IMG/VR virus record: IMGVR_UViG_3300025418_000451
Location: 1-24,276 of that record
Strand: one strand, 5' to 3'
Origin: a virus
DNA: 24,276 nt
The position numbers and the translations under genes were made by a program. The notes under the pieces are model-generated. The model was not told the origin of the DNA and ran no database searches. It saw only the letters and a program-made list of their open reading frames with translations. Shown piece by piece: positions 1,300 to 23,542 of the stretch (position 1 is its first letter; each line of letters starts with the position of its first letter).

Positions 1300-3348
1300 T
1301 TATTTGTATTTGTCTAATAAAGCTTGTTGGTCAGAACTTAAAGTAGACGGCGCTGGGGTAGAGGAAGTGAATGGGTTTATACGACTTAAAAAGCCCGGCT
1401 CTTTAGGTTTGGTAGGCGGAGTAATTGTATCCATTTTTGGTGGAGTGTATTCTCTATTATGCTGTTTATAGATTTTAGCTGTTTCAGCATCAATCGCTTC
1501 CAAATACTTTCTTTCGCTCTCAGCCGTTAACATACCATTTTTTTGATCAGCAGCCATTCTAGCGTTTAATGAACGAATAGTAGGATTAATAGATAAATCT
1601 TTTTCTATTTTGCTAGAAATAACATCGTATTGATCTGGTTTGTTGCCAGCAATTTCACCATAAATTCTATTGCGCTCTTCAGCAGCCTTAGCGGCAGAAC
1701 CATATTTGTAAAGTGCATTTTGTTGTGCCAACAATTCATTAGCCTCTTTGCTGGATGCTTGATTAAGGGATGCATATGCACCAATACCTTTTTCTGCTCC
1801 CTGACCGATATTAACTGCAGCATATGGAGATGTGCCACCCATCATGCCAAAACCAGCTTGCATTAAAGCGAGATACTTATTCATTTCTCTATCTTTTTTG
1901 GACTCAGCTCTTTGCGCCGCAATATCTTTTAAATTTTGTGCAAGCATTTGATTGTAATCAAGCTGATCTATCCCAGCGGGTTTGGACTCTGGTAGAGCAG
2001 GTACAGGAGCTGGAGCCGGAGCTGGGGATGGAGCAGGAGCTGGAGTTGCCGCAGGAGCAACAGTCGTAGCCGAAGGTGCAACAGGGGATGGATTGGTAGA
2101 AGGAGTAGCAACTACTGGGTTAGTAGGGGCTGGAGCGCTAGTATCTGTAAAGCTTACATTTTTACGCGCGTTACTAGCTGCATTAAATCTTGCAGCCTGC
2201 TCTTCTTTTGTTTCATTTGCATAATCATGCGCAAACTTAGAAAATGGTTGACCTACGTTACGTTGATATAAATCATATAAATCATAATTTTTTGGAGTTG
2301 TAAATGCTGTTCCAACATCCTTTACGCCTTGAACTAATCCACGGCTACGTTGTAAATAAGCATTATCAGACATGGGATCGCCCATAGACTGATCGTCTGC
2401 TTGACTACCAGCATCATAATTTTCTTTTATTTCATCACCCTTTTTAAAATGGGCAATACCACCTTCGCTATAATTGCGAGTTTCTGCAGGCAAAGAAGCT
2501 AAACCTTGAGGATGACGTAAAGCTTTGTCTACGCGTCCGGGTCCAGCGTTATAAGCCATTAAAGTTAATTGCGGATTTTGATACTTATCATTCATTTGCT
2601 TTAAATAAGTAACCCCACCCTGAATGTTTTGCATAGGGTCGGTTGGATCTACGCCTAAAGATTTGGCAGTGGCTGGCATTAATTGCATAACACCAATAGC
2701 GCCTGCTTTTGAACGAGCTTTTTCTGGATCTTTCAATCCACCAGTTTCACGATACAAAGCATGAAGTGCAATAGCAGGATCTAATCCTTGGCGTTCTGCC
2801 TCTTTAACTACATAGTCGTGGTACTTGTGTCCTTTTCCAAAACCAATGCTTTCGGATTCAGGTCGCATTTGGATAGCAGCAGAGGGATGTACGTCAGATC
2901 CTCTACCGCGAGCAGCGATTGCTTGTATAAAGTCATTATCTGATCCGGATCCATAAAGCTGTTCCAGTTCTTGGTCTTCTGTTTCATCATCCATTCCTCC
3001 GCCAGCAAAATTTAATATTCCACCTTCTGCCATTTGCGTAGGTAAATTACTTTGTGCCGCTTCAATACCCTGTTCTGAAGCTTGTTCTATTTCTGGCGCC
3101 GCTTGCTCTTCTTGTGGCATTTTGCGTGGCATACGGCGTGGTGAAGAAGCCGCCATGATTTGGTCAGCAATAGGAGGTTGTTGCTGTGGTTGTTGCATAG
3201 CCATTGCTTGCTGTTGTTGATTCATTTTATCTTGAATCATTGGAATGCCAACATAAGCTGGTAATGTTCCATCTGCTACGGCTTGGTGTAATTGTTGTAC
3301 TGAAAGATTTTGCGCGCTATTCATGCGGCTCATTAGGCTATTTATCAT
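1300..3348 (-). CDS. Internal virion protein with lytic transglycosylase (SLT) domain
   Basis: This 682-aa protein has a soluble-lytic-transglycosylase domain at about residues 170-295. The catalytic Glu is in ALYRETGG (E201), followed by GVMQLMPATA (219-228), AYNAGPGRV (265-273) and LPAETRNY (286-293), the usual order of SLT motifs. The N-terminal 100 residues are Q/M/P-rich. Residues about 430-480 form a Pro/Ala/Val/Thr linker. The C-terminal third is helical in composition and ends in a Pro/Ser/Thr-rich tail. In podovirus-like phages an SLT domain in the last virion genes usually belongs to an ejected protein that opens peptidoglycan at infection; that role is inferred. The start ATG overlaps the upstream stop as ATGA. 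Two AEGGI/SEGGI motifs flank the SLT domain (107-111 and 294-298). Confidence 0.9.
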   Translation of the reverse strand: MINSLMSRMNSAQNLSVQQLHQAVADGTLPAYVGIPMIQDKMNQQQQAMAMQQPQQQPPIADQIMAASSPRRMPRKMPQEEQAAPEIEQASEQGIEAAQSNLPTQMAEGGILNFAGGGMDDETEDQELEQLYGSGSDNDFIQAIAARGRGSDVHPSAAIQMRPESESIGFGKGHKYHDYVVKEAERQGLDPAIALHALYRETGGLKDPEKARSKAGAIGVMQLMPATAKSLGVDPTDPMQNIQGGVTYLKQMNDKYQNPQLTLMAYNAGPGRVDKALRHPQGLASLPAETRNYSEGGIAHFKKGDEIKENYDAGSQADDQSMGDPMSDNAYLQRSRGLVQGVKDVGTAFTTPKNYDLYDLYQRNVGQPFSKFAHDYANETKEEQAARFNAASNARKNVSFTDTSAPAPTNPVVATPSTNPSPVAPSATTVAPAATPAPAPSPAPAPAPVPALPESKPAGIDQLDYNQMLAQNLKDIAAQRAESKKDREMNKYLALMQAGFGMMGGTSPYAAVNIGQGAEKGIGAYASLNQASSKEANELLAQQNALYKYGSAAKAAEERNRIYGEIAGNKPDQYDVISSKIEKDLSINPTIRSLNARMAADQKNGMLTAESERKYLEAIDAETAKIYKQHNREYTPPKMDTITPPTKPKEPGFLSRINPFTSSTPAPSTLSSDQQALLDKYK

Positions 3349-4433
3349 ACAATTCCGCCTTCAGCTTTATTCATGGTGTTATACAAACCCAATCCTGCAA
3401 TACCAGCGGTTCCCAAACCAGCAGCTTGAGAGATAGCGCTTGGAGCTGCTTGATATTGTTGTACAGTAGAGGACTGTAATGGCAAACCACGCAACTGAGC
3501 ATTCATAAATGCAAGCTGTTGTTGTGGGTACTGTTGAGCCACAGCGTAATTCTGAACCGCTTGGTTAATAATCTGTTGTTGTTGAGCTTGTTGTTGTGCG
3601 CCTGCAGCATTTTGTGCAGATAAAATACCTTGTTGAGCGCCCAATTGTTGGCCGCCAATATTTGCCAATTGACCAGCACCTTGAATGCCAGCTTGTGCGC
3701 CTTGTAATCCAACATTGGCTACATTGGTTGCTTGTTGTTGAGCATTACCAAAAGCTTGGCTATAAGCATTACCTACTAACTGATTTTGTGCCAACATTTT
3801 ATTTTGTTGGTTTAATCCAGACATCAAAGCTTCACGGCTACCACCAAAAGCACCAGCGCCTGTGGCTTGACCTTGTTCTTGAGCAGCTTGTTGTCCATAT
3901 TGCTGATTTAACAATGCCATAGATGGTTGCAATACATTTTGCAAATATGGATTCATGTATTGACCAATACCTTGAGCGCTTGTCAATGTATTCTGTAAAC
4001 CCATGCCAGCACCTAATGCTTGACCTGTACCAAATGCGGCAGCGCCTGTTGCTGTCCCATACTGACCGGGGGTTTGTAAATTTGCTACGCCCTGTTGAGA
4101 CTGTTGTTGTAATGGACTAAAGCCCGCTACATAGTCTTGTGGATTTTGACTGTATGGAACATAGGGTTTAACACCAGTAATTTGCACTGAACCATCAGGA
4201 TTTGTTGCTGTATTAAACAATTGCTGTTGCGTTGCACCAAGCATTGTTTCAACATAAGGTTGTGCGTAGTCAGGAATGTTGGTGTTTTGTACAGTAGTTT
4301 GGGTTGGGGCAGAAGATGGGGCAGGGGCAGATGGTCCGCCACCTTCTAATGTCATTCCACCACCAAATAGACGAGTTCCTAAGCGTGGGCTAAACGCTCT
4401 CTCTGGCAACATCGAATCTAATGTATATCTCAT
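3345..4433 (-). CDS. Gln/Ala/Gly-rich putative internal virion (ejection) protein
   Basis: A 362-aa low-complexity protein. After an N-terminal Pro/Ser/Ala stretch (residues 26-48) comes a conserved-looking block (IPDYAQPYVETMLGATQQQL). It is followed by about 230 residues dominated by Q, A, G, N and L with amphipathic helical character, including GAFGGSREALM at about 196-206. The C-terminus ends in AEGGIV, the same short motif seen in the next gene. Such Q/A-rich proteins just before an SLT protein are typical of the ejection or internal-core genes of environmental podovirus-like phages; the role is inferred from position and composition. The stop overlaps the next start (ATGA), implying translational coupling. 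No enzymatic motif is visible. Confidence 0.8.
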   Translation of the reverse strand: MRYTLDSMLPERAFSPRLGTRLFGGGMTLEGGGPSAPAPSSAPTQTTVQNTNIPDYAQPYVETMLGATQQQLFNTATNPDGSVQITGVKPYVPYSQNPQDYVAGFSPLQQQSQQGVANLQTPGQYGTATGAAAFGTGQALGAGMGLQNTLTSAQGIGQYMNPYLQNVLQPSMALLNQQYGQQAAQEQGQATGAGAFGGSREALMSGLNQQNKMLAQNQLVGNAYSQAFGNAQQQATNVANVGLQGAQAGIQGAGQLANIGGQQLGAQQGILSAQNAAGAQQQAQQQQIINQAVQNYAVAQQYPQQQLAFMNAQLRGLPLQSSTVQQYQAAPSAISQAAGLGTAGIAGLGLYNTMNKAEGGIV

Positions 4434-9864: not shown

Positions 9865-10091
9865 TATTGCCCCTGTTGTGTTGCAGCTTTACCGCCAATT
9901 AGAATACCGCTACCGCCCAGCACACTACCAAAGCCAATACCAAATTGACTGAAATCAAAGGTAACACCACGAAATGCGTGAATAAATCCAATGGCAATAA
10001 AAGCAATAACGCACAAAAGAGTGCAAAGCCTAGCGATGCAAAATGTCTGATTATCATCCTCTGTAAGAATATCAGTCAGAATTTTTTTCAT
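9864..10091 (-). CDS. Holin-like small membrane protein
   Basis: A 75-aa protein with a charged N-terminus (MKKILTDILTEDDN), a strong membrane segment at about residues 20-40 (CTLLCVIAFIAIGFIHAF) and a second, Gly-rich segment at about 48-67 (FSQFGIGFGSVLGGSGILIG). It ends in a short polar tail. Two membrane segments, small size and position directly before spanin and endolysin fit a class II-type holin that would permeabilise the inner membrane for the GH19 enzyme. It overlaps the preceding gene by 20 bases and the Rz start by one codon region. No family-specific motif proves holin activity, so it remains positional. Confidence 0.75.
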   Translation of the reverse strand: MKKILTDILTEDDNQTFCIARLCTLLCVIAFIAIGFIHAFRGVTFDFSQFGIGFGSVLGGSGILIGGKAATQQGQ

Positions 10092-10320
10092 CTTTTTTCA
10101 CCAAACGCTTTATTGCTTTTTTAGCAGCTTTCTTTTTGGCGGGTACAAAGCGAGCTTCTACGGGTTTACGAGTAGTTGCTTTTTGCACGGTTGGGCGCTT
10201 CTTTTTTGTAGACTCTGGCGCAGGAAATGGCCAAGGCGCTTCAACCACTTTACCAACTTGCATATCAATCTTTGGCATAAAGCCAAGCTTATCCATAATC
10301 CATGTAAATGTAAAATTCAT
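10072..10320 (-). CDS. Small basic protein of unknown function, before the lysis cassette
   Basis: An 82-aa protein. The N-terminus MNFTFTWIMDKLGFMPKIDM is partly hydrophobic. The rest is Lys/Arg/Pro/Ala-rich with a strongly basic C-terminal half (KKKAAKKAIKRLVKK). It starts immediately after the cupin stop and its 3' end overlaps the holin-like gene by 20 bases, so it is probably co-translated with the lysis genes. I do not recognise a function. A nucleic-acid-binding or membrane-surface role would suit the charge, but nothing in the sequence decides it. Confidence 0.7.
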   Translation of the reverse strand: MNFTFTWIMDKLGFMPKIDMQVGKVVEAPWPFPAPESTKKKRPTVQKATTRKPVEARFVPAKKKAAKKAIKRLVKKDEKNSD

Positions 10321-12960: not shown

Positions 12961-13821
12961 TTATAAAACGACCCAACGGCTACCCGCTGGAATTGTAATT
13001 GTTACACCACTTGCTACCGTAATTGGTCCTGCGCTCTCACCGCTATTGCCAGCCGTCATTGTATAGTTTGAAGTGATGCTTTGCGTATTTTCATAGACTG
13101 CTCCGCCAGCGCTTGCCGAGCTTACAGAACCCCAAGTAAAGATACTTCCATTCCAAATTAAAGCTGTATTAGCGGAGGCTGGAGAAACAATAAACCCTGA
13201 TGTACTAGACGCACTTTGGTAAAGAATTTGATTGGCTGCTCCGCCCGATAAGCTAGAAGCTAGGGTGGCAGCTGTTGCCGTTCCGGTTAAGTTACCAGTA
13301 AATGTTGAACTTATTGCAGTTGCAGTTACAGTCCCTGTTAGGGTAGAGGTTCCTGATACCGTTAAATTACCGCCCACATTCCAGTTACCTGCCGCTGCGG
13401 TCTGAGCTGAATAGAACCCAATACCATTTCCGCTGACATTTGATGCATCGCAATAACATTGTCCAGTCGTTAAAGCTGGGATAACCAAAGAAGTAACCCC
13501 GCCTGATGCGGTCATCGTCAATGGCAAAGTGGTATTATTAACCACTACATAAAGCTTATTTTGCGCTGGAGCTGTAATTGTAGGAGCTGCAGAAGGGGTT
13601 CCAGTAAAGATTAAAGCCATATTGCGGGCATCGTCTGATACCCCATTTAAATTGGTTAGCGTATAAGCGCTTAGACCACTTAAAGAGATTGCAGTAACGC
13701 CAGTAATTGCCTGTTCCAGCAATGTACCTAAATTGGTATTGGTCGTGCTTCCCCATGTACCGGACTGATCTCCATTGCCAATCAGGGCAAGCTTTAAAGA
13801 CGGGCTATAAGTAGTAGTCAT
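12961..13821 (-). CDS. Tail fibre protein with shared GSRWVVL C-terminus
   Basis: A 286-aa protein. The N-terminus (YSPSLKLALIGNGDQSGTWG, then TTNTNLGTLLEQAI) is a common phage fibre N-terminal domain, followed by beta-strand-rich sequence. The segment at about 150-190 (GGNLTVSGTSTLTGTVTATA) is a typical repetitive shaft. The last 40 residues (SITSNYTM ... GPITVASGVTITIPAGSRWVVL, broken) match the C-terminus of the 165-aa protein at 19117-19614 although the rest differs. No good ribosome site is visible before the start, which lies three bases after the stop of the giant repeat gene. Confidence 0.8.
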   Translation of the reverse strand: MTTTYSPSLKLALIGNGDQSGTWGSTTNTNLGTLLEQAITGVTAISLSGLSAYTLTNLNGVSDDARNMALIFTGTPSAAPTITAPAQNKLYVVVNNTTLPLTMTASGGVTSLVIPALTTGQCYCDASNVSGNGIGFYSAQTAAAGNWNVGGNLTVSGTSTLTGTVTATAISSTFTGNLTGTATAATLASSLSGGAANQILYQSASSTSGFIVSPASANTALIWNGSIFTWGSVSSASAGGAVYENTQSITSNYTMTAGNSGESAGPITVASGVTITIPAGSRWVVL

Positions 13822-13824
13822 AGG

Positions 13825-15297
13825 CTATGGATAGTTATTGTTAATGGTTGACCAGCTTTGGTTTTCAGTATCATCAATATTGTTCCAACTTGAATTTTGG
13901 GAATCGGCAATGCTTGCCCAAGCTTGTCCTTGAGCATCGTTAATTTTATACCAGCCAAATATGAATGGGCTATCTGATAATACCAAATTCTCGACTATCT
14001 GGCTAGTAAAGGATGCTATTACTGTAATTGCGTCCTTTGGGTTAATACCTTCTGTAATTAAAGCGTTAAATATCTTTATAGCTGTTTCTGAGTCTGCTGG
14101 ACTGAAGTTTTCACTAATAGCCGCATTGTAAATTTTGACAACTGTGTTAATGTCATTAGCACTTAGGGTTTCCGATAAACTAGAAACAAAGCTGGCTAAA
14201 ACTGTTTCTAAATCGGCAACATTAGTAGCCTCATTGACAACAACTGAGAAGTTAGCGACTACTGACTCCGAGTCTGCTATTCCCGCACTTTCAAAAATAA
14301 CGCTGGCAAAGGTAACAAATACAGCTTGAGAGTCGGCAAAACTAATGTTTTCTGCTATAGATTTGTTATAAATAATGGTTATTGCTGGAGCATCAGCAAA
14401 TCTAGCTGCCTCACTAATAGAGCTGGCAAAACTCGCTACTCCCGCTAATAAGTCGGCTACAGATGTGTTTTCAGAAATTAAGCCTGCAAAAGTAGCTATT
14501 GTGGACTCAAAATCAGCCAATACAATATTTTCTAAAATAGCGTTTGAGAATGCCGCCTGAACGGTTTGGGCATCAGCCAAGCTTGTAGATTCGCTAATCG
14601 CGGCTGTAAATGCAAAGTTTACAGCGTTTAAATCCGCTAGGGTAATGGCTTCGTTTATTGCAGACGAGAAAACGGCTGTAAGAGTCTCTAAATCGGTTAT
14701 AGAGGATATGGCCTCGGTAATTGCCCCAGCAAAGATAGTTATGGCCGATTGGGAGTCAGATGGCTGTAAATCTTCGGTAATTGCGCTGGAGAAGGCGGCA
14801 ACTACCGATTGGGCATTTGCTATCGTAATAGATTCACTTATAGCCACAGCTAGGGCGTTTGCTACAGTCTCAAAATCCGCTAATACTAGAGCTTCAGATA
14901 TAGCCGCTGAGAAGGTAGCAATTACGGATTCTGAATCTGTCTCTGTAGAAATAACTTCAACAATAGCCGCCGAGAAAGTGGCAATAACAGACTCTGCGTC
15001 TGTTTCCGTAAGGATAGCTTCACTAATAGCGCTTAAAAATGCTGCAGCTGCGCTAGGTACGTCTGCTGGTTGTAGGTTCTCCGTAATAGCGCTGAAAAAT
15101 GCGGCTGCTACAGACTGCGCATCAGTCAAAGTTAGGGCTTCTGCTATGGCGCCTGCATATACTGCAACGGCTGATTCGGCATCCGTTATGGATGAGACGG
15201 TTTCTGTAATGGCTGAAGCAAATGACGCTATTACTGACTGGAGGTCTGCTGGTTGTAGGTTTTCACTAATAGACGTGACAAACGCAGTAACTACGCT
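13825..15297 (-). CDS. Giant repeat fibre B, 3' part (in-frame continuation after TAA)
   Basis: There are 490 sense codons in exactly the frame and repeat phase of the gene that stops at 15298. The first residues after the stop (SVVTAFVTSISENLQPAD) complete the interrupted 20-residue repeat. About 22 more repeats follow, more diverged than those before the stop and close to those of the 816-aa neighbour (for example ISEAILTETDAESVIATFSA at 14968-15027). It ends in four 11-residue W repeats (13828-13953). The stretch contains no Met codon at all; the TTG at 15129 is preceded by no ribosome site. Independent translation is therefore unlikely. Either the stop is read through, the gene was recently broken, or the stop is a sequence error. 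Confidence 0.75.
   Translation of the reverse strand, partial: SVVTAFVTSISENLQPADLQSVIASFASAITETVSSITDAESAVAVYAGAIAEALTLTDAQSVAAAFFSAITENLQPADVPSAAAAFLSAISEAILTETDAESVIATFSAAIVEVISTETDSESVIATFSAAISEALVLADFETVANALAVAISESITIANAQSVVAAFSSAITEDLQPSDSQSAITIFAGAITEAISSITDLETLTAVFSSAINEAITLADLNAVNFAFTAAISESTSLADAQTVQAAFSNAILENIVLADFESTIATFAGLISENTSVADLLAGVASFASSISEAARFADAPAITIIYNKSIAENISFADSQAVFVTFASVIFESAGIADSESVVANFSVVVNEATNVADLETVLASFVSSLSETLSANDINTVVKIYNAAISENFSPADSETAIKIFNALITEGINPKDAITVIASFTSQIVENLVLSDSPFIFGWYKINDAQGQAWASIADSQNSSWNNIDDTENQSWSTINNNYP
13828..13953 (-). repeat. Four 11-residue W repeats ending fibre B
   Basis: Trp occurs at exact 11-residue spacing four times (pattern W-x-x-I-x-D-x-Q/E, for example WASIADSQNSS, WNNIDDTENQS). 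The same pattern ends the 816-aa neighbour. Confidence 0.85.
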
Positions 15298-15300
15298 TTA
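15298..15300 (-). other. In-frame TAA interrupting giant repeat fibre B
   Basis: TAA at codon 455 occupies repeat position 11, where sibling repeats have Glu or Gln (DSESV or DSQSV). One base change from GAA or CAA explains it. The frame before and after is identical (15300 minus 15129 is a multiple of three). The context is GAC TCA TAA AGC GTA. Confidence 0.9.
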
Positions 15301-16662
15301 TGAGTCCGCTGACGAAATTGCTTCTGATATAGCTGTGGCAAAAGCTGTAACTACTGACTGGGAGTTTGCTATGCTTAAAGCTTCTGTTACGGCATTAGCA
15401 AAAGTCTGGGATACTGACTGGGAGTTCGCTACTGTTAATGCCTCAGATATAGCGTTAGCAAAGGTTTGAGCTACGGATTCAGAATCTGCTACCGATAATG
15501 CTTCGGATATGGCGTTAGCAAAAGTTTGAGCTACCGACTGAGAATCTGCTGAAGTTAAGGCTTCAGATATAACGCTTGCAAAGGCTGCTTTTACTGACGC
15601 AGAATCTGCGGCGCTTAATGCTTCTGAAATGCTTGTTATAAACGTGTAAAGAAAACTACTAGAGTCCGCCGTAGATAAAGCTTCTGATATAGCGCTTGCA
15701 AATGTGGCAGTTACCGATTCTGAATCTGCTGATGTTAAGGCTTCTGTAATAGCCGAGTTAAATATTTTAACTACAGACTCTGAATCTGCTGATGTTAAAA
15801 CTTCTGTAATTGCGGTAGCAAACGTTTGGGCTACGGACTCTGAATCGGCAGCGCTTAAAGCTTCTGTAATTGCATTAGCAAATGTTTGGGCTACAGACTC
15901 TGAGTCAGCTATTGTGGCGTTTTCTGATATAGCCGAATTAAATATTTTAACTACAGACTCTGAATCAGCGGCTGTTACAGGCTCAGATATTAGGTTTGAC
16001 GATGATTGTGTTGCGCTTTCTGAGTCAGCTGAAGTTACTGTTTCTGTAACGGCGCCGGTAAAAGCGTTAGTTGGTTTAAATGCTACAGCATAAGCATCAA
16101 GCGCTGCTGATTGGGCCGTAGTACCAGTATAAGAAGTCGTAGTTCCTGCTGAGGCTTGGTTAATATCAACCACCAGCATACCTGTTGTAGAGGTGGTTCT
16201 AGATTGACTAACCCGTTGTGTTGGCCCAGTTGGTGCAGTCCATGCTCTTGCTCCGCCAAAAAGAGCTGTTGCGCCACCATAAATACTTAATACCAAATCT
16301 GCTGCTGCGGTAGTTGTGGTGGTGTTGGTAGCAACGGAAGTAGCCGATGCCGTAGCGACTGTACTTACAACATCAAATACGGCTGTTCCGCTATAGGCTA
16401 AAACTACTGCGGCTGTGGCTGTATTGGAATTAGAAACCGTTTGCGCTGTCTCAGATGCCCCTGCAACCTTATACCATATTGCCGTAAATGGGCTGGCATT
16501 ATGAAGAGCAATTTGTGTATAGCCTGTAGGAGCAGCACTAAAAGTAGCCCCAGAAGTACCTACAATGATTAATAAGTTACCAGCAGATATACCGGTTGGA
16601 AGCGCTGGAGTAGGATTAGAACCAGTTGAGACCGCACCTACGTTAACAAATGCCCATGCCAT
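15298..16662 (-). CDS. Giant repeat fibre B, 5' part: N-terminal beta domain plus homogeneous 20-residue repeats
   Basis: 454 codons up to an in-frame TAA. Residues 1-200 form a beta-rich domain (WAFVNVGAVSTGSNPTPALP, YKVAGASETAQTV, then FGGARAWTAPTGPTQRVSQS and YAVAFKP). The domain is frequent in phage and bacterial surface proteins and has a carbohydrate-binding/jelly-roll look, though this is not provable by eye. From residue 205 come twelve and a half copies of a 20-residue unit with consensus I-S-E-A-L-S-x-A-D-S-E-S-V-x-x-x-F-A-x-A. They are much more uniform than those further on. The ATG follows the previous stop by two bases with only a weak ribosome site. Probably a tail fibre or adhesin. 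The natural product may be 945 residues long if the TAA is suppressed or erroneous. Confidence 0.8.
   Translation of the reverse strand: MAWAFVNVGAVSTGSNPTPALPTGISAGNLLIIVGTSGATFSAAPTGYTQIALHNASPFTAIWYKVAGASETAQTVSNSNTATAAVVLAYSGTAVFDVVSTVATASATSVATNTTTTTAAADLVLSIYGGATALFGGARAWTAPTGPTQRVSQSRTTSTTGMLVVDINQASAGTTTSYTGTTAQSAALDAYAVAFKPTNAFTGAVTETVTSADSESATQSSSNLISEPVTAADSESVVKIFNSAISENATIADSESVAQTFANAITEALSAADSESVAQTFATAITEVLTSADSESVVKIFNSAITEALTSADSESVTATFASAISEALSTADSSSFLYTFITSISEALSAADSASVKAAFASVISEALTSADSQSVAQTFANAISEALSVADSESVAQTFANAISEALTVANSQSVSQTFANAVTEALSIANSQSVVTAFATAISEAISSADS
15751..15960. repeat. Near-identical 30-bp direct repeats 180 bp apart
   Basis: 15751-15780 and 15931-15960 differ at one base (agccgaGtta versus agccgaAtta, then identical). 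The spacing equals three protein repeat units, pointing to a three-unit duplication. Confidence 0.8.
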
Positions 16663-16664
16663 AG

Positions 16665-19115
16665 CTAGCTCTGATTATCGTTTATTGGAGTCCAGTCATC
16701 TTTTTCTTCATCATTGATGATTGTCCACGGGTTAAGTTTAGTATTATCTACTAAAGAATAATTTTGTAATTGCGTATTATTTATGTTTGTCCAACTAGAA
16801 CCACCATTTGAATTAATTGAATTATAGTTTGGATTTTCACTATCAATAATATTGTTCCAAGCAGAGATAACTGCATTGTTGATTAAATTAAAGTTTGGAT
16901 CCTGACTATCATTAATTTTTATCCATGCAGCAGATAATAAAATATCAATAACATTAATGTTTTCTAGTATTGTTGTATTAAATATTTTTATAGTTTTCTC
17001 AAAGTCTTGAGCAAAAATATTTTCATTAATAAACGTACTAAAAATACTTACTACAAACTCAGCATCAGCCAAAGACATAGACTCTGATATAGCAACCACA
17101 GCACCAAATACGGCCTTTTCAGCATCCAACAAAGATAGAATAGGTTCAGATATGCTAGATGAAAAGTTTGCTGAAGACGATGCGCTGTCTAAGATGCTTA
17201 CTATGTTTTCAGATATGGCAGAAGCAAATGCGGCTATTACTGATTCTGAGTCCGCCAATGTGGTAGATTCGCTAATAGCCGAAGAGAATGCTGCAAGTAC
17301 CGTTTCTGCATCAGCTATATTTAATGCCTCTGTAATAGCGCTAGAGAATGTTACTGCTAATGACTCGGAATCAGTTTCAGCGGAAATAGCCTCAATAATA
17401 GCTACTGTAAACGTTGCTATTACCGCTTCTATATCAAGTTCTGTTAGTATATTTTCTGATATAGCGCTGGCAAAAGAAGCTACAACTGACTGAGAATCTG
17501 CTGGCTGTATATCTTCTGAAATAAAGGAGTTGGCTATAAGTATTGCAACTGCTTCTGGAACTGATGTTGAAGTAGTTAAGTAGTCAGCAAATCCACTAGC
17601 GCCAAACGGTAATGCAGCAAATGCTGCAGGTGTGTTAAGTGTCTGTAAATTAATGTTAATGTTTTCGGCAATCGCCGTTAACAAAGCTGCCGTAACGCTT
17701 TCAAAATCTGCAGAGTCTATTGCTTCTGTAACAGCCGTGGCAAACGTCGCATTAACAACGTCTAAATCGTCGGCATTAAAATTTTCTGATATTGCGCTTA
17801 AAAATGATGCGGTTACAGATGGCGTATCTGCTGGGCTTATATCTTCCGATATGCTAGAGGCAAAAGCTGCTACAACCGATTCAAAATCAGCAATACTTAA
17901 AGCTTCGGAAATAGCGGCTGAGAAGGTTGCGATAACGGATTCGCTATCGGTTTCTGTAAGGATGGCTTCAACAATCGCTGCTGAGAATGTAGCCAATACT
18001 GATTCAATATCAGACTCAGTAAGAATTGCTTCTGATATAGCTGTTAGTAGTGTGGCAGTTACATTTATAGAATCATTTGGCTGTATATCTTCCGTAATAG
18101 AAACAGAAGTAACAAAAACTGCAATAGCATTAAATATTGATTGAACAATTATTGACTGACCAGCAAAAGCGCTATCACCAAAAGCAAATGCAGCAAAGGC
18201 AGCGGGGTTGCTTATTGTGGTTATATCAACGCCAATAGCTTCATTAATATCTACACCATATGATGCCAATATAGACAACACATCATTTAAAGTTAAGTCT
18301 TCTGAAATGCTTGAACTAAATGTTGCGTTACCACTTGCTGAGTCTGCTGGGTTTAAATTTTCTGTAATAGCGCTTAGGAATGCAGCAAGAACAGACTCGT
18401 TGTCGTTTAAACTTATGTTTTCTAATATTGAATAAAAGAATGTTGCTACTACAACGTTTATATCAGCTACCGTAGCCGCCTCAGTAATTGCGCTAACAAA
18501 CGCCGCTGTTGCATTTGGCGTATCACTTATATTGGAAATAGCCTCAGTAATAGCTTGAGCATAAGTTGCTAAACCAACAGGGCTGTCTAGTATTGTGCTT
18601 ATGTTTTCAGATATAGCGCTAGAAAATGAAGCTAATACCGATGGCGTATCTGCTGGATTTACATTTTCATTAATTGCAGAAACAAAAGCCGTTGTAACAG
18701 AATCTAAATCGGCAATATTTAAAGCTTCTGATATGGCTGCCGAGAATGTGGCAATGACAGATTCACTGTCTGTTTCAGTAAGAATCGCTTCAACAATGGA
18801 TGCGCTAAATGTTGCAATTACGGAATCTATATCCGTTTCGGCTAGAATTGCCTCTGCTATTGCACTTAAAAAAGCGGCTGTTACTGAAGGTGTGTCTGCA
18901 GAACTTAGGTTTTCAGATATAGAATTAGCAAAGGATGCTTTTACTGATTCAGAATCTGCTGGGCTTAAAGCCTCTGATATAGCGTTGGCAAATGTGGCAT
19001 TTGCTGCAACAACATCTGCTACTGTAACTGCCTCTGAAATACTAACGAGGTAGCTAGTAGCACTAAATGCTAATGCCGCAAATGGTACTTGGGCAAACCC
19101 CGCATAGCCAAACAT
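16665..19115 (-). CDS. Giant repeat fibre A (816 aa)
   Basis: Read by eye the protein divides cleanly. Residues 1-25 are a Phe/Ala/Gly-rich start (FGYAGFAQVPFAALAF). Residues 26-289 hold 13 repeats of 20-21 residues, and 290-339 a 50-residue divider with PAAFAAFAFGDSAFAG. Residues 340-481 hold 7 repeats, and 482-531 a second 50-residue divider (PAAFAALPFGASGFAD). Residues 532-715 hold 9 repeats, and 716-816 a partial unit and eight 11-residue aromatic repeats. The repeat consensus is I-S-E-A-L-x-x-A-D-x-E-S-V-x-A-x-F-x-S-A; Asp9 is nearly constant. The unit is shared with the next gene, implying duplication. Position among fibre genes and Ser/Thr/Ala/Glu composition suggest an elongated fibre or adhesin. 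Function not recognised. The start is one base after the preceding TGA. Confidence 0.82.
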   Translation of the reverse strand: MFGYAGFAQVPFAALAFSATSYLVSISEAVTVADVVAANATFANAISEALSPADSESVKASFANSISENLSSADTPSVTAAFLSAIAEAILAETDIDSVIATFSASIVEAILTETDSESVIATFSAAISEALNIADLDSVTTAFVSAINENVNPADTPSVLASFSSAISENISTILDSPVGLATYAQAITEAISNISDTPNATAAFVSAITEAATVADINVVVATFFYSILENISLNDNESVLAAFLSAITENLNPADSASGNATFSSSISEDLTLNDVLSILASYGVDINEAIGVDITTISNPAAFAAFAFGDSAFAGQSIIVQSIFNAIAVFVTSVSITEDIQPNDSINVTATLLTAISEAILTESDIESVLATFSAAIVEAILTETDSESVIATFSAAISEALSIADFESVVAAFASSISEDISPADTPSVTASFLSAISENFNADDLDVVNATFATAVTEAIDSADFESVTAALLTAIAENININLQTLNTPAAFAALPFGASGFADYLTTSTSVPEAVAILIANSFISEDIQPADSQSVVASFASAISENILTELDIEAVIATFTVAIIEAISAETDSESLAVTFSSAITEALNIADAETVLAAFSSAISESTTLADSESVIAAFASAISENIVSILDSASSSANFSSSISEPILSLLDAEKAVFGAVVAISESMSLADAEFVVSIFSTFINENIFAQDFEKTIKIFNTTILENINVIDILLSAAWIKINDSQDPNFNLINNAVISAWNNIIDSENPNYNSINSNGGSSWTNINNTQLQNYSLVDNTKLNPWTIINDEEKDDWTPINDNQS
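16668..16925 (-). repeat. Eight exact 11-residue aromatic repeats ending fibre A
   Basis: Aromatic residues fall at 731(W), 742(F), 753(W), 764(Y), 775(W), 786(Y), 797(W) and 808(W), always 11 apart, with the pattern W/F/Y-x-x-I/V-N/D-D/N-S/T-Q/E. Confidence 0.88.
17523..17672 (-). repeat. 50-residue divider module 2 of fibre A
   Basis: Residues 482-531, centred on NTPAAFAALPFGASGFADY and followed by a hydrophobic VPEAVAILIANSF stretch. It is a diverged copy of divider 1, and both resume with an I-S/T-E-D-I-Q-P unit. Confidence 0.75.
18099..18248 (-). repeat. 50-residue divider module 1 of fibre A
   Basis: Residues 290-339, centred on NPAAFAAFAFGDSAFAGQS and followed by a hydrophobic IIVQSIFNAIAVFVTSV stretch. 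It has the same length and layout as divider 2. Confidence 0.75.
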
Positions 19116-19116
19116 T

Positions 19117-19614
19117 TCACAGTACTACCCATCTGGAGCCACTAGAAACTGTTACTGAAACACCTGAGGCAACTGTTATTGGACCTACAGAAAGCGCTCC
19201 TGTACTTGATGGAACTGTATAGTTTGAAGACACAGAAAGTCCGTTTTGGAAAAATGGTGAGGTACTTAAAGTAATCGTACCCGGTAAAGTAACGTTTAAA
19301 GATGCGTCTTCGTATACTGCTCGCTCTGAAGGGTATGTAACAAATATGTTAACAGTGCCGCTAAATGTAACAGCGCTTCCAGAGTTGGATGACGACAATA
19401 TGGTAGTGCGAGTTAAAGTTGGCCCCGTAGTTGAGTACGTACCAATACCTACTTCCCAGTTACCAGAACCATCATACGCACTGTAGTACGTTGTGTTACC
19501 GTTGCCGATAACCGAGAATGACTGGAAGCCAGTAACAGTACCTACAAGACTAAAGCTTATGGTAGTGTTGGCTGTTCCAGTCTGCTGTACTCTATCGTAT
19601 AGCGCCAGAGCCAT
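19117..19614 (-). CDS. Putative tail fibre protein with GSRWVVL C-terminus
   Basis: A 165-aa protein. The N-terminal 95 residues (LALYDRVQQTGTANTTISFS, FQSFSVIGNGNTTYYSAYDG, WEVGIGTYSTTGPTLTRTTI) are a domain recurrent in environmental phage fibre proteins. The C-terminal 40 residues (SNYTVPSSTGALSVGPITVA then SGVSVTVSSGSRWVVL) are nearly the same as the end of the 286-aa fibre at 12961. A strong AGGAG site stands six bases before the ATG. Likely a virion/fibre component upstream of the two giant repeat proteins. The shared C-terminus may be a trimerisation or attachment tip; that is inference. Confidence 0.78.
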   Translation of the reverse strand: MALALYDRVQQTGTANTTISFSLVGTVTGFQSFSVIGNGNTTYYSAYDGSGNWEVGIGTYSTTGPTLTRTTILSSSNSGSAVTFSGTVNIFVTYPSERAVYEDASLNVTLPGTITLSTSPFFQNGLSVSSNYTVPSSTGALSVGPITVASGVSVTVSSGSRWVVL

Positions 19615-19626
19615 GTCAGGCTCCTA

Positions 19627-20238
19627 TTAGCTAGTCGCTGTGGTTGTGTAAGTAATTGCTAAAGAGTCACCGTTGGAAACAATCTTGCTACCACCAGTAA
19701 ATGAACCAGCGCTATATAAAACGCCAGTAGTTGCACTTACAGTTGCAGAAGCAGATGCACCGCCGTTAATAAAGCAACCAAAAATAGTAGCGCTTGACAA
19801 CATACTGAATGTCAAAGCTGCAGCGTTTTTAGTAACGATATTGGATGGAGAAGCTTGTCCGCCATTGGTAGACGCGTTCCAGTTTGGTGACTGACGAGCA
19901 GCATATACGCTAGTTGCTGGCTCATACCAACCCGCATGGGTAACCATAGTATCTGACTGGAAATAGTTAGCAGTAGCCGATGCGCTGGTTACTAAACCAA
20001 GATAGTTTGCGCCAGAAGCTGTACCGCCACCAGTACCAGTTGTACCAAAGTAGTAGTCAAATAAAGATTGTTTACCTACAGCAGTTACTAAGTTAGGAGC
20101 TTTTTCTTCCCACTTTAAATTGCCTTCGCTGTCAAAACACTTTACATCATAATAGCCTTGTACGCCAAAGCCATCATTAGAGCCAGCGCCACGGGTAACA
20201 GTAGCAGTACTGACATCACCATAATTCGATTTTTCCAT
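19627..20238 (-). CDS. Conserved phage virion protein
   Basis: A 203-aa protein. GYYDVKCFDSEGNLKWEEKA (28-47), then PNLVTAVGKQSLFDYYF, THAGWYEP and a C-terminal GVLYSAGSFTGG ... ISYTT-like strand pattern are features I recall from a widespread small virion/tail protein of environmental podoviruses and siphoviruses. It has no catalytic residues and is rich in Gly, Ser, Thr and Ala. AGGAG precedes the start. It sits between a tail protein and fibre genes. A structural role is very likely; its exact place is unknown. Confidence 0.78.
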   Translation of the reverse strand: MEKSNYGDVSTATVTRGAGSNDGFGVQGYYDVKCFDSEGNLKWEEKAPNLVTAVGKQSLFDYYFGTTGTGGGTASGANYLGLVTSASATANYFQSDTMVTHAGWYEPATSVYAARQSPNWNASTNGGQASPSNIVTKNAAALTFSMLSSATIFGCFINGGASASATVSATTGVLYSAGSFTGGSKIVSNGDSLAITYTTTATS

Positions 20239-20247
20239 TTAAAACTC

Positions 20248-20676
20248 CTAACTAATTGTTAATACTGCTGTGGTTGATGTTGCCGTTGGGAAAGTAACGG
20301 TAAACGTATTTGAACTGGTAATTGTGCTACCAAAGTTCAAAATAAAGCAAGCCGCCCCAGTAGTGCTATTATATACTAATGCACCATTAGCGGAAATACT
20401 ACCATTCCAAGTCACATTATTAAATGAGATGTACGCTATATTATTCGTGGTATCTTGGGTTGGGGGGTTAGATATTGTCAATATTTGACCGCCAGCCGTA
20501 TATCCTGACCCTGTAGCTTCATTGGTAGTGGTATAGGCTGTGGTGGTATTGTTTAGATTGGCATTCCCGTTATAAAGGGCTATTTTGTAGGTATAAGGGG
20601 AAGTTAGGGTAAAGTTCTCTAAACCCGACAAAATATTGGCTTTAAATAAAGTGGTCTGGCCTTGGACGATTGGCAT
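20248..20676 (-). CDS. Conserved tail/virion structural protein
   Basis: A 142-aa beta-rich protein. VQGQTTLFKANILSGLENF (4-22), YKIALYNGNANLNNTTTAYT (30-49), GSGYTAGGQILTISNPP and NGALVYNSTTG form a pattern common in phage tail proteins that follow an adaptor gene. The start overlaps the adaptor stop (TAATG), so the two are probably produced in coupled amounts. Virion role likely; no more can be said. Confidence 0.78.
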   Translation of the reverse strand: MPIVQGQTTLFKANILSGLENFTLTSPYTYKIALYNGNANLNNTTTAYTTTNEATGSGYTAGGQILTISNPPTQDTTNNIAYISFNNVTWNGSISANGALVYNSTTGAACFILNFGSTITSSNTFTVTFPTATSTTAVLTIS

Positions 20677-21605
20677 TATGTATTAACCTTTAACTTGGTT
20701 TGACCATCTCTGTATGCATCACCACGCTCTAAGCCATCGCCTAAACGTTTCATTTCGTTGAGAGCTTCTTGGAATTTATCTTCGTAATACTTAATAATAT
20801 CCTGCTCCTGCTTTTGGAAAAGCATAGCTTCCCGCATAGCACCATAAAACAGCACGGGATCGTAGTTGTCGCCAAGCCAGCTAGTGCCAGTAGGATTATT
20901 GGTAGTTGCTACAGAAATGGTAAATCCTGATCCAGTTCCACCAATAGAAGAGGTTGCTGCGCTAAGTACATCCCCAACCTGATAGAAACTACCGCCATTT
21001 TGTAATGTAACGGATGACACATTACCGCTACCATTAACTAAGATATCCGCAGTTGCGCCAGAACCCGATCCACCAGTTAGTGGGATATTTTGGTATAAGC
21101 CGGGGCTATATAATGTACCAGCGGTGAATGAGGCATTCAAAGTAGCAACAACACCCTGAACAATGGATACTGGATAGTAGAAATAATGGAGTTCTACGCT
21201 GTAACTTTGGTCAGGAGTTGGGCCGACAATAGCGGTTAGCTGATTGTAATTAGTAATAGAATTGCCAAAAATAGCGTAGTACTTAGGTAAACTCCAGCTA
21301 GACGAGCCATTATTGGGGTACGCTTCACGGATAAAGTTAACATCTTTGTTAAGTAGGTAAGTGTAGTTTCCGCTTGAGTCAACGACAGCAATCGAATAAG
21401 TGGAAAGCCAGTCAAACGGCAAAGTTAAATACTGGTTTCCATATGAGAATGTGCCTGTGACGTTCTTGCGTAATGATGGAATCTGAACCGCATTGTAAAT
21501 ACGAAGTTCCGCCTCTTCAACAAAGAAGGGAATATTTGCTACAAACGTTGTTTCGCTTGTTTGAGCGTAAGTCTGTATGTTATTTACAAGCGTTTCGTAA
21601 TTCAT
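20676..21605 (-). CDS. Tail adaptor / connector protein with inserted beta module
   Basis: A 309-aa protein. The conserved parts are N-terminal (TTFVANIPFFVEEAELRIYN, RKNVTGTFSYGNQYLTLP, LLNKDVNFIREAYP, VGPTPDQSYSVELHYFYYP) and C-terminal (TSWLGDNYDPVLFYGAMREA, then YYEDKFQEALNEMKRLGDG). This family is frequent as a neck/tail adaptor in environmental phages. Between about residues 152 and 236, just before SWLGDNYDP, is an extra Gly/Ser-rich module (LYSPGLYQNIPLTGGSGSGA ... GGSFYQVGDVLSAA). It resembles modules found in other phage fibres and I believe it is not part of the basic family. Start and stop overlap neighbours as TAATG. Confidence 0.8.
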   Translation of the reverse strand: MNYETLVNNIQTYAQTSETTFVANIPFFVEEAELRIYNAVQIPSLRKNVTGTFSYGNQYLTLPFDWLSTYSIAVVDSSGNYTYLLNKDVNFIREAYPNNGSSSWSLPKYYAIFGNSITNYNQLTAIVGPTPDQSYSVELHYFYYPVSIVQGVVATLNASFTAGTLYSPGLYQNIPLTGGSGSGATADILVNGSGNVSSVTLQNGGSFYQVGDVLSAATSSIGGTGSGFTISVATTNNPTGTSWLGDNYDPVLFYGAMREAMLFQKQEQDIIKYYEDKFQEALNEMKRLGDGLERGDAYRDGQTKLKVNT

Positions 21606-21916
21606 TATGCCATCGGTCCACGAGCAATACGGCCTTTGGTAGCAGCACCATTACCGCGAGTTTCAAGACCTTCGGTTTTTACCTTGCCAGTACCATATGC
21701 AACGCCATTTGTTAATGGATCGCTAATAGATGCGTCTTTGGCTGACTTGGTTCTACCGTATTCGCCATCCTTCATAACTTCAGTGCCATCAACAGCTTTG
21801 CCAGCCATTGTATGTGGTGCAGCATAGGCACTAGCGGGTTTATCATCACGATTTTTACCAACCACCAATTTAGAAGAATTTTTGGTAGTAGGCTTTATAT
21901 TTTTTGCGGTTGCCAT
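21605..21916 (-). CDS. Small basic virion-cluster protein
   Basis: A 103-aa protein, Lys/Gly/Thr-rich and without hydrophobic segments; it looks partly disordered. Recognisable stretches are AYAAPHTMAGKAVDGTEVM, DGEYGRTKSAKDASISDPL and the C-terminal RGNGAATKGRIARGPMA, which I recall from small genes beside tail adaptors of aquatic phages. It starts one base after the previous stop and its stop overlaps the adaptor start. Function unknown; perhaps a minor head or neck protein. Confidence 0.72.
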   Translation of the reverse strand: MATAKNIKPTTKNSSKLVVGKNRDDKPASAYAAPHTMAGKAVDGTEVMKDGEYGRTKSAKDASISDPLTNGVAYGTGKVKTEGLETRGNGAATKGRIARGPMA

Positions 21917-21917
21917 A

Positions 21918-22169
21918 TTAACGACCTCTTGAGCTAGATTTCTGATTAGCTACACGAGCCATATTGCGACCCATGCTGCGTAAATTAGACTGAGTTACGC
22001 CACCCTTAGCCATCTTCTTAACATCCATGCCGCCCTTTTTGAGTTTTAGCTTGGTATGTTTTCCGGGATGCTCTTGAGCGTCGTGTTCTTTTATTGCTTT
22101 TCTGATTTCTTTATCAGCCATAGCTTTGTCTTGTTTCATGTCTTCTTTTTTGGATTCCATCTTTGCCAT
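21918..22169 (-). CDS. Small Lys-rich protein with KGGV motif
   Basis: An 83-aa strongly basic and charged protein. The first half is helical and K/E/D-rich (MAKMESKKEDMKQDKAMADK). The second half contains KLKLKKGGMDVKKMAKGGVT (about 41-60) and a basic C-terminus (GRNMARVANQKSSSRGR). AGGAG overlapping the upstream TAG sets the start. Possible nucleic-acid contact or disordered virion protein; function unknown. Confidence 0.72.
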   Translation of the reverse strand: MAKMESKKEDMKQDKAMADKEIRKAIKEHDAQEHPGKHTKLKLKKGGMDVKKMAKGGVTQSNLRSMGRNMARVANQKSSSRGR

Positions 22170-22178
22170 TTTTTACTC

Positions 22179-22607
22179 CTAAGTTGTTGTTACTGTTACT
22201 GAGTTAATATTACCATTGCCTACTAAATAATTAGGAGTAAGCTTCCTATCATATCCACTAGAACCACCTACTGGATACCAGCCCCACTGTATAACTCGAC
22301 TTCCGCCTTCTGGGTAACCGGCTTGCGAAACATTTGTTCCACCGCCCTGCTGCACCTGCAAGCCACTTGGTCCAGACGCATAATAACTAATATCAGGTCT
22401 TGGTTCACGAACCGCCTGAGGGTCATTAACCGGATACATACCCAAACGCAACTGCGGATGATCTGGATCCCAACACTCAGGACACACTTTAATGCTGACC
22501 AACTTGGTCTTGATTGTTAGCTTTTTTAATTCTACTAACTTATATCTTTGACCACATCTATCACATTCAGCAATACTGTGTTTGGCTGATGCATACTTAG
22601 TTGGCAT
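22179..22607 (-). CDS. Zinc-ribbon virion-cluster protein
   Basis: A 142-aa protein. Two CxxC knuckles, C15/C18 (ECDRCG) and C42/C45 (VCPECW), spaced 23 residues apart, make a zinc ribbon. It is followed by DPDHPQLRLGMYPVNDPQAV and REPRPD (69-74), a block I recognise as recurring in aquatic phage genomes between connector-type genes. The C-terminal 60 residues are Gly/Ser/Tyr/Gln-rich. It probably binds Zn for structure in the virion neck or tail; the protein's place is inferred from context. Confidence 0.8.
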   Translation of the reverse strand: MPTKYASAKHSIAECDRCGQRYKLVELKKLTIKTKLVSIKVCPECWDPDHPQLRLGMYPVNDPQAVREPRPDISYYASGPSGLQVQQGGGTNVSQAGYPEGGSRVIQWGWYPVGGSSGYDRKLTPNYLVGNGNINSVTVTTT

Positions 22608-22609
22608 AC

Positions 22610-23542
22610 TTACCTCGAATAAAACAAATTACGAGGCACAAATCTAATTGATACATCTTCTCTATCTTCTTCAATAGCCTGTTGCAACTGTTCCATGTAC
22701 TCGGCTTTTAAACCCATTGCGCGCTGAATATCCATATTAGGTAGCTTCATTGCCAAATAGTAAGACAATCCAGCCACCAAGCAGGTAATCCAACGAAATG
22801 GTATATCTTGAACATATACACCAGTACCAGAGTCTTGAACCCGTCTCATACGCCAATAAACGAGCGTATACGGCGTTGAATTGTCTGGGGTAGGCCATAC
22901 TGCCAAGCTCGGTAATTGCTGGTCGTAAATCGCCGCTCCTACATTATGTGATGCTGCTGTAGTATTGTACTGTCCACGGTAGCAGTTTAAAAGCTGGTTT
23001 CCTGAAATATTGACATATCCAATAATTTCGTTATCAATCTGCACAAAACCAGTTGACCGCATATTAAATGTAGAGGTAAGGGTAATTGTGGTAGCTGATG
23101 GGGTCAAGGTAGCCGCCAAACTTACGCCAGAATAAATATTAGAGTTGCCAGTCTGACGGTTGTACCAAACTTGAATTGGGCGACCATATGTCAGCTTATT
23201 AGGTATCGTAGAGTAAGTAGACTCTGAAATACGATTGAGGTTAATATCTTGCTGATTAGATGAACTAGCATTATTCGTGCGAGTAACCAAGTCTAAAATA
23301 TCAATCGTATCAGCGCCAACTGGATATATAGCTTGACCATATACCAGCGGGATAGAGATTTCTTCTACTGTCCAAAAGTTAATACCGCGATTAGCCCACT
23401 CAATCGTTAATAAATTGATAGACCGCTTGGCAGTTTTAAGGTCATATCCAGTGCGTAACTGCGAGCCACATCTTTCGAATGCCTCTTCCACCAATTCAGT
23501 TAAATCTAAATTAAAAGTAGAATTACCGCTTGTATATGCCAT
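22610..23542 (-). CDS. Neck/tail-connector-type virion protein
   Basis: A 310-aa protein. STFNLDLTELVEEAFERCGS (8-27), TAKRSINLLTIEWANRGINF (38-57) and WTVEEISIPLVYGQAIYPVG (58-77) are helical then beta motifs of a family very common in environmental podovirus-like phages, next to adaptor genes. A beta module (about 140-215: ATLTPSATTITLTSTFNMRS, VQIDNEIIGYV) with AVWPTPDN follows, and the C-terminal helical region (LAMKLPNMDIQRAMGLKAEY) ends in RFVPRNLFYSR. Such proteins are assigned to tail-tube/adaptor positions, but the assignment is by context. The start overlaps the previous stop (TAATG). Confidence 0.8.
   Translation of the reverse strand: MAYTSGNSTFNLDLTELVEEAFERCGSQLRTGYDLKTAKRSINLLTIEWANRGINFWTVEEISIPLVYGQAIYPVGADTIDILDLVTRTNNASSSNQQDINLNRISESTYSTIPNKLTYGRPIQVWYNRQTGNSNIYSGVSLAATLTPSATTITLTSTFNMRSTGFVQIDNEIIGYVNISGNQLLNCYRGQYNTTAASHNVGAAIYDQQLPSLAVWPTPDNSTPYTLVYWRMRRVQDSGTGVYVQDIPFRWITCLVAGLSYYLAMKLPNMDIQRAMGLKAEYMEQLQQAIEEDREDVSIRFVPRNLFYSR

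Follow-up and report, generated by a model that had tools for sequence, protein, structure and literature searches.

In an uncultured tailed phage, a repeat-rich tail-fibre gene has probably been interrupted, and recently, by one nonsense substitution. This is how we read, from the sequence, a long minus-strand frame in the window, the whole 24,276-nucleotide stretch of IMG/VR virus record IMGVR_UViG_3300025418_000451 that was analysed. The frame (16662..13825) encodes 454 amino acids, meets an in-frame TAA, runs on for 490 codons, none of them for Met, and closes with TAG; the figure of 945 codons given in the original prediction is the sum of 454, the stop itself and 490. The two halves are one gene. 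The prediction of a single interrupted gene is borne out by the frame, the repeat phase, the codon usage, the synteny and the relatives, and the features on which the argument turns are collected in Table 1.

Table 1. Features of the interrupted fibre gene and of its neighbours in the window
Feature	Coordinates	Strand	Remarks
Upstream tail gene	19117..19614	-	Syntenic anchor ahead of the fibre slot
Neighbouring intact repeat fibre, 816 aa	16665..19115	-	About 30 units; likewise W-terminated
N-terminal module, residues 1-200 (MAWAFVNVG...)	16063..16662	-	92.5% identical to L009
Upstream ORF, 454 aa	15298..16662	-	N-terminal module, 12 whole units and part of the 13th; closed by the in-frame TAA
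In-frame TAA, codon 455	15298..15300	-	Interrupts unit 13 of the 35-unit array
Downstream half, 490 codons	13825..15297	-	22 in-phase units, W-rich terminus, TAG; own start absent
C-terminal W-repeat module (FGWYKINDAQ...NNNYP) and TAG	13825..13956	-	Placed by alignment
Downstream tail gene	12961..13821	-	Syntenic anchor after the repeat fibre in relatives

The array consists of units of about 20 residues, the hallmark of the repeat fibre family, and the unit holding the stop reads TAISEAISSADS*SVVTAFV, the asterisk being the TAA. At the matching position, 25 units of the split fibre carry GAA, GAG, CAG or CAA. The claim that the TAA stands where sibling units have Glu or Gln was thus confirmed, though in the relatives these residues occupy the equivalent position in only 117 of 310 units, so they are common there but not obligatory. 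The repeat phase is unbroken across the TAA, the stop unit being preceded by 12 whole units and followed by 22, and a repeat HMM recognises the two halves with E-values of 1.5e-53 and 1.1e-74; frame and phase do continue through the 490 open codons, as had been claimed. Alignment also agrees that the downstream half ends in the same kind of W-rich terminus as the neighbouring fibre; this C-terminal module belongs to the whole frame and is absent from the 454-aa ORF taken alone. Mean DNA identity among units shifts near the stop, from about 0.6 before it to about 0.5 after it. We considered a junction of two unlike arrays at this point and rejected it, since both sides are in phase and such a join explains no stop.

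The downstream half has every appearance of coding sequence. At its base composition, 490 open codons would arise by chance with P of about 3e-13, and each of its other five frames holds between 6 and 62 stops. Its codon usage scores +0.40 bits per codon in frame; the remaining two forward frames score -0.39 and -0.55. It contains neither a second stop nor a frameshift. The last 198 codons share 62% and 58% protein identity with two intact fibres (those of L015 and L016, respectively), with pN/pS values of 0.32 and 0.34. Between intact relatives the ratio ranges from 0.26 to 0.48 (0.26 for L015 against L016), although near-saturation of the synonymous sites makes it a weak test of selection. 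Since the second half is open, in coding register and conserved like its functional relatives, the break in the fibre gene would be of recent date or else an artefact. That no further decay has set in is equally compatible with a base-call error and with a recent mutation.

The comparison with relatives places the gene. We gathered 244 related viral loci, to which six more were added later, and the repeat HMM retrieved 73 distinct repeat ORFs. The W-rich terminus ends 69 of the 70 distinct ORFs that are complete at the 3' end (245 viral sequences), and the sole exception is the 454-aa ORF of the window. Homologues of both anchor genes, 19117-19614 and 12961-13821, occur together in 86 loci, some of them overlapping pieces or near-copies of one phage. 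In these, a repeat fibre between the two anchors, where it stands in the window too, forms one frame that opens with a module of its own, usually MFG or MYG; it is nearly always W-terminated, mostly right before the homologue of 12961. In whole-ORF BLAST searches, 58 relatives align to the C-terminal end of the 454-aa ORF and extend more than 30 aa beyond it, and none ends there. No relative carries a stop inside its array. The window is therefore the only member of the family whose fibre is not a single unbroken frame, and we filed it as an interrupted member. This is the pattern of a lesion of the lambda stf kind: the homologues in relatives are intact and the break is private to one record. 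Among the family, five loci (L015, L016, L010, L013 and L042) and about 100 more uncultured IMG/VR phages resemble the window in having units of about 20 residues, the same terminus and the same slot before the homologue of 12961-13821. Their fibres differ in being uninterrupted, mostly 200-400 aa long, and in starting for the most part with MFG or MYG, not MAWAF.

The same comparison bears on whether two genes might be present, a short fibre up to the TAA and a second fibre restarted within the downstream half. What could be said for such an arrangement is that a TTG 57 codons past the stop opens a 434-aa ORF (13825-15129). However, this is the first start-like codon in a half that has no ATG, as the original prediction had stated, and no ribosome site is visible in the 25 bases ahead of it. 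The restart would fall in mid-unit and have no N-terminal module, in which it would differ from all relatives whose start can be read, and the upstream product would be left without a terminus. In none of the related contigs compared did the two halves each possess a start and a terminus, and no relative has an array starting directly behind an in-frame stop, the downstream half of the window being unique in this respect. In a wider check, all the start-less repeat arrays began at a contig edge; two further loci, L079 and L177, have start-less frames too, but these are not repeat arrays. We consider two genes highly improbable.

One long gene interrupted by an in-frame TAA is also what reassignment of TAA to a sense codon would produce, and this explanation we regard as next to impossible for this phage. 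Homologues of the window genes that end in TAA finish at the equivalent residue, whether with TAA, TAG or TGA; this holds, for example, in 137 of 139 cases for 19627-20238 and in 68 of 68 for 21605-21916. TAA therefore terminates in this phage, in keeping with the earlier judgement that general reassignment is unlikely. The other marks of a recoded genome, in-frame stops in many genes and a stop codon unused as terminator, are likewise not seen. As for the suppressor tRNA that had been suggested as a further check, searches of the window, of the 244 loci and of 15 longer related records (36-68 kb) gave no tRNA gene, and the same search was positive in 14 of 14 controls; the window being a 24-kb fragment, such a gene may still lie elsewhere in its genome or in the host. 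Phage phAss-1 offers the contrasting case. There, TAG is recoded to Gln; 41 ORFs contain TAG stops, and genes for three suppressor tRNAs are present (PMC10607447). It resembles the window in having in-frame stops inside structural genes, but the window has one TAA in one gene, ends other genes with TAA and carries no tRNA gene that we could find.

Functional readthrough or suppression at the TAA, giving a short fibre of 454 aa and a long one of about 945, would account for a downstream half that is conserved and keeps both frame and repeat phase, as expected of an extension; also in its favour, the base following the stop is an A, the strongest context being U (PMC5289835). The stop itself, however, is kept by no relative, so the conserved extension lacks a conserved stop. 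UAA is the bacterial stop with the least readthrough (PMC5289835). The RNA fold downstream is barely better than that of shuffled sequences (z -1.16) and gives no readthrough signal, and the tRNA searches described above apply here as well. The short form would also miss the C-terminal module that all relatives keep. The short/long switch by suppression that the original prediction thought notable thus found no positive support; we judge functional readthrough very unlikely, and a leaky or host-suppressed TAA whose two fibre lengths are tuned by the translation state of the host would be, if anything, slightly more doubtful.

The explanation that competes most directly with a nonsense substitution puts the TAA down to a wrongly called consensus base or a misassembly in the array, the true gene being intact and encoding about 945 residues. 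We think this unlikely, yet by no means negligible: the event is a single base in a repeat, there is no downstream decay, and there is no second copy. The stop was found in this one metagenomic record, and an exact-pattern scan around it, with the codon left open, gave no match in viral or genome contigs. L009 and L011, two relatives whose arrays are the most similar, both end inside them, L009 before the stop-equivalent position. Evidence on the other side comes from L253, a separate IMG/VR record whose sample number is unlike those of the other loci discussed, though it may share reads with the window. It represents the same phage population, being 99.5% identical over window positions 16739-23488 in a gap-free alignment. 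It reproduces the neighbouring 30-unit array, the covered part of that fibre (16739-19115) being identical except for one base. Of its 34 differences from the window, 33 are confined to two short blocks within gene 22610-23542, so that a single isolated difference outside these blocks is found over 6,750 bases. This copy suggests that arrays assemble consistently here and that isolated consensus errors are rare. As 3.4% of substitutions create a stop, by our arithmetic the false stops expected in the split gene, scaled from the L253 comparison, number below about 0.02. An in-phase join of units from two strains would not in itself create a stop. Contig ends, which we tried as a sign of misassembly, fall in arrays in six loci, not clearly above the 2.2% share of sequence that arrays occupy. 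L253 ends 77 bases short of the split gene, and the stop therefore has no second witness. Among the three options originally listed, then, a recent mutation is favoured, readthrough has gained no positive support, and error is indistinguishable from mutation without the reads.

In the vicinity of this comparison, the two blocks that distinguish L253 (22736-22832 and 23399-23441) contain mostly synonymous changes, the remaining 6.6 kb differing by one base, and they look like patchy exchange with a divergent allele.

Under the favoured reading, that of a recent nonsense substitution, one of the two repeat fibres of this phage would be truncated. Ribosomes would end at the TAA, and the product would be a stub of no more than 454 residues, missing the C-terminal module and, as a fibre, probably non-functional. 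The laboratory allele of the side-tail-fibre gene stf in lambda PaPa is a frameshift, and lambda stf is the closest precedent for a truncated fibre gene: in both cases a small mutation splits a tail-fibre gene, and in lambda the rest of the phage is functional. The two differ in the kind of break, a frameshift there and an in-frame nonsense codon here; their sequences are unrelated, and the stop of the window is known from one metagenomic record. In lambda, stf loss is selectable and the gene hypermutable, and structured environments select for variants without the fibres (PMC2762979). Such selection for the loss of accessory fibres in other phages, together with the intact 816-aa neighbour, would let the allele persist, at least for a while. 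If the stop is real, it adds one more phage population whose accessory fibre is dead or shortened, within a family whose fibre arrays expand and whose N-terminal modules are swapped. The observation is ordinary in kind and leaves the understanding of such fibre genes unchanged. It also carries a caution, namely that one metagenomic record with an in-frame stop is no evidence of recoding before it has been confirmed by reads or by a further copy.

With tblastn against phage isolates neither half was matched, the tail module had no near DNA match, and no relatives of the fibre were found in bacterial genomes. The N-terminal module belongs to no Pfam or PHROG family, and L009 was the only other viral locus found to carry it. 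Weak PHROG and Pfam matches of the 454-aa ORF (to a helicase and an ant venom peptide) were taken as low-complexity chance. Structure predictions, with mean pLDDT of 47 and 45, were unusable; Foldseek with the first of these low-pLDDT models gave no match at E < 0.001, and solved structures gave no significant match.

The fibre slot and its surroundings vary among these phages in several other ways. Among relatives, the typical frame in this slot has a median length of about 285 aa, and both window fibres are two to three times as long. At its N terminus the second fibre has a module of the MAWAF type in the window and in L009, and one reading MFGKQP, VFGKQP, MFGQQP or MFGRQS among L010, L011, L013, L015 and L016; differing N-terminal modules joined to common repeats and a common terminus are, to judge from the sequences compared, a case of module swapping. 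Units of the TETDSESVIATFSAAI kind are present in both fibres (17881-18032 and 14870-15021, 74% DNA identity), which suggests exchange between the two arrays. Further along, about 200 bases after 10072-10320 have no clear gene, and relatives of that gene match its first 50 or so residues only, the remainder of the protein being different. In 19117-19614 the first 110 residues are conserved, and the C-terminal part and the length vary, from 165 to 672 residues in relatives. Finally, the ORF homologous to 3345-4433 extends more than 30 residues further in 13 relatives, so the end of this gene differs between phages.
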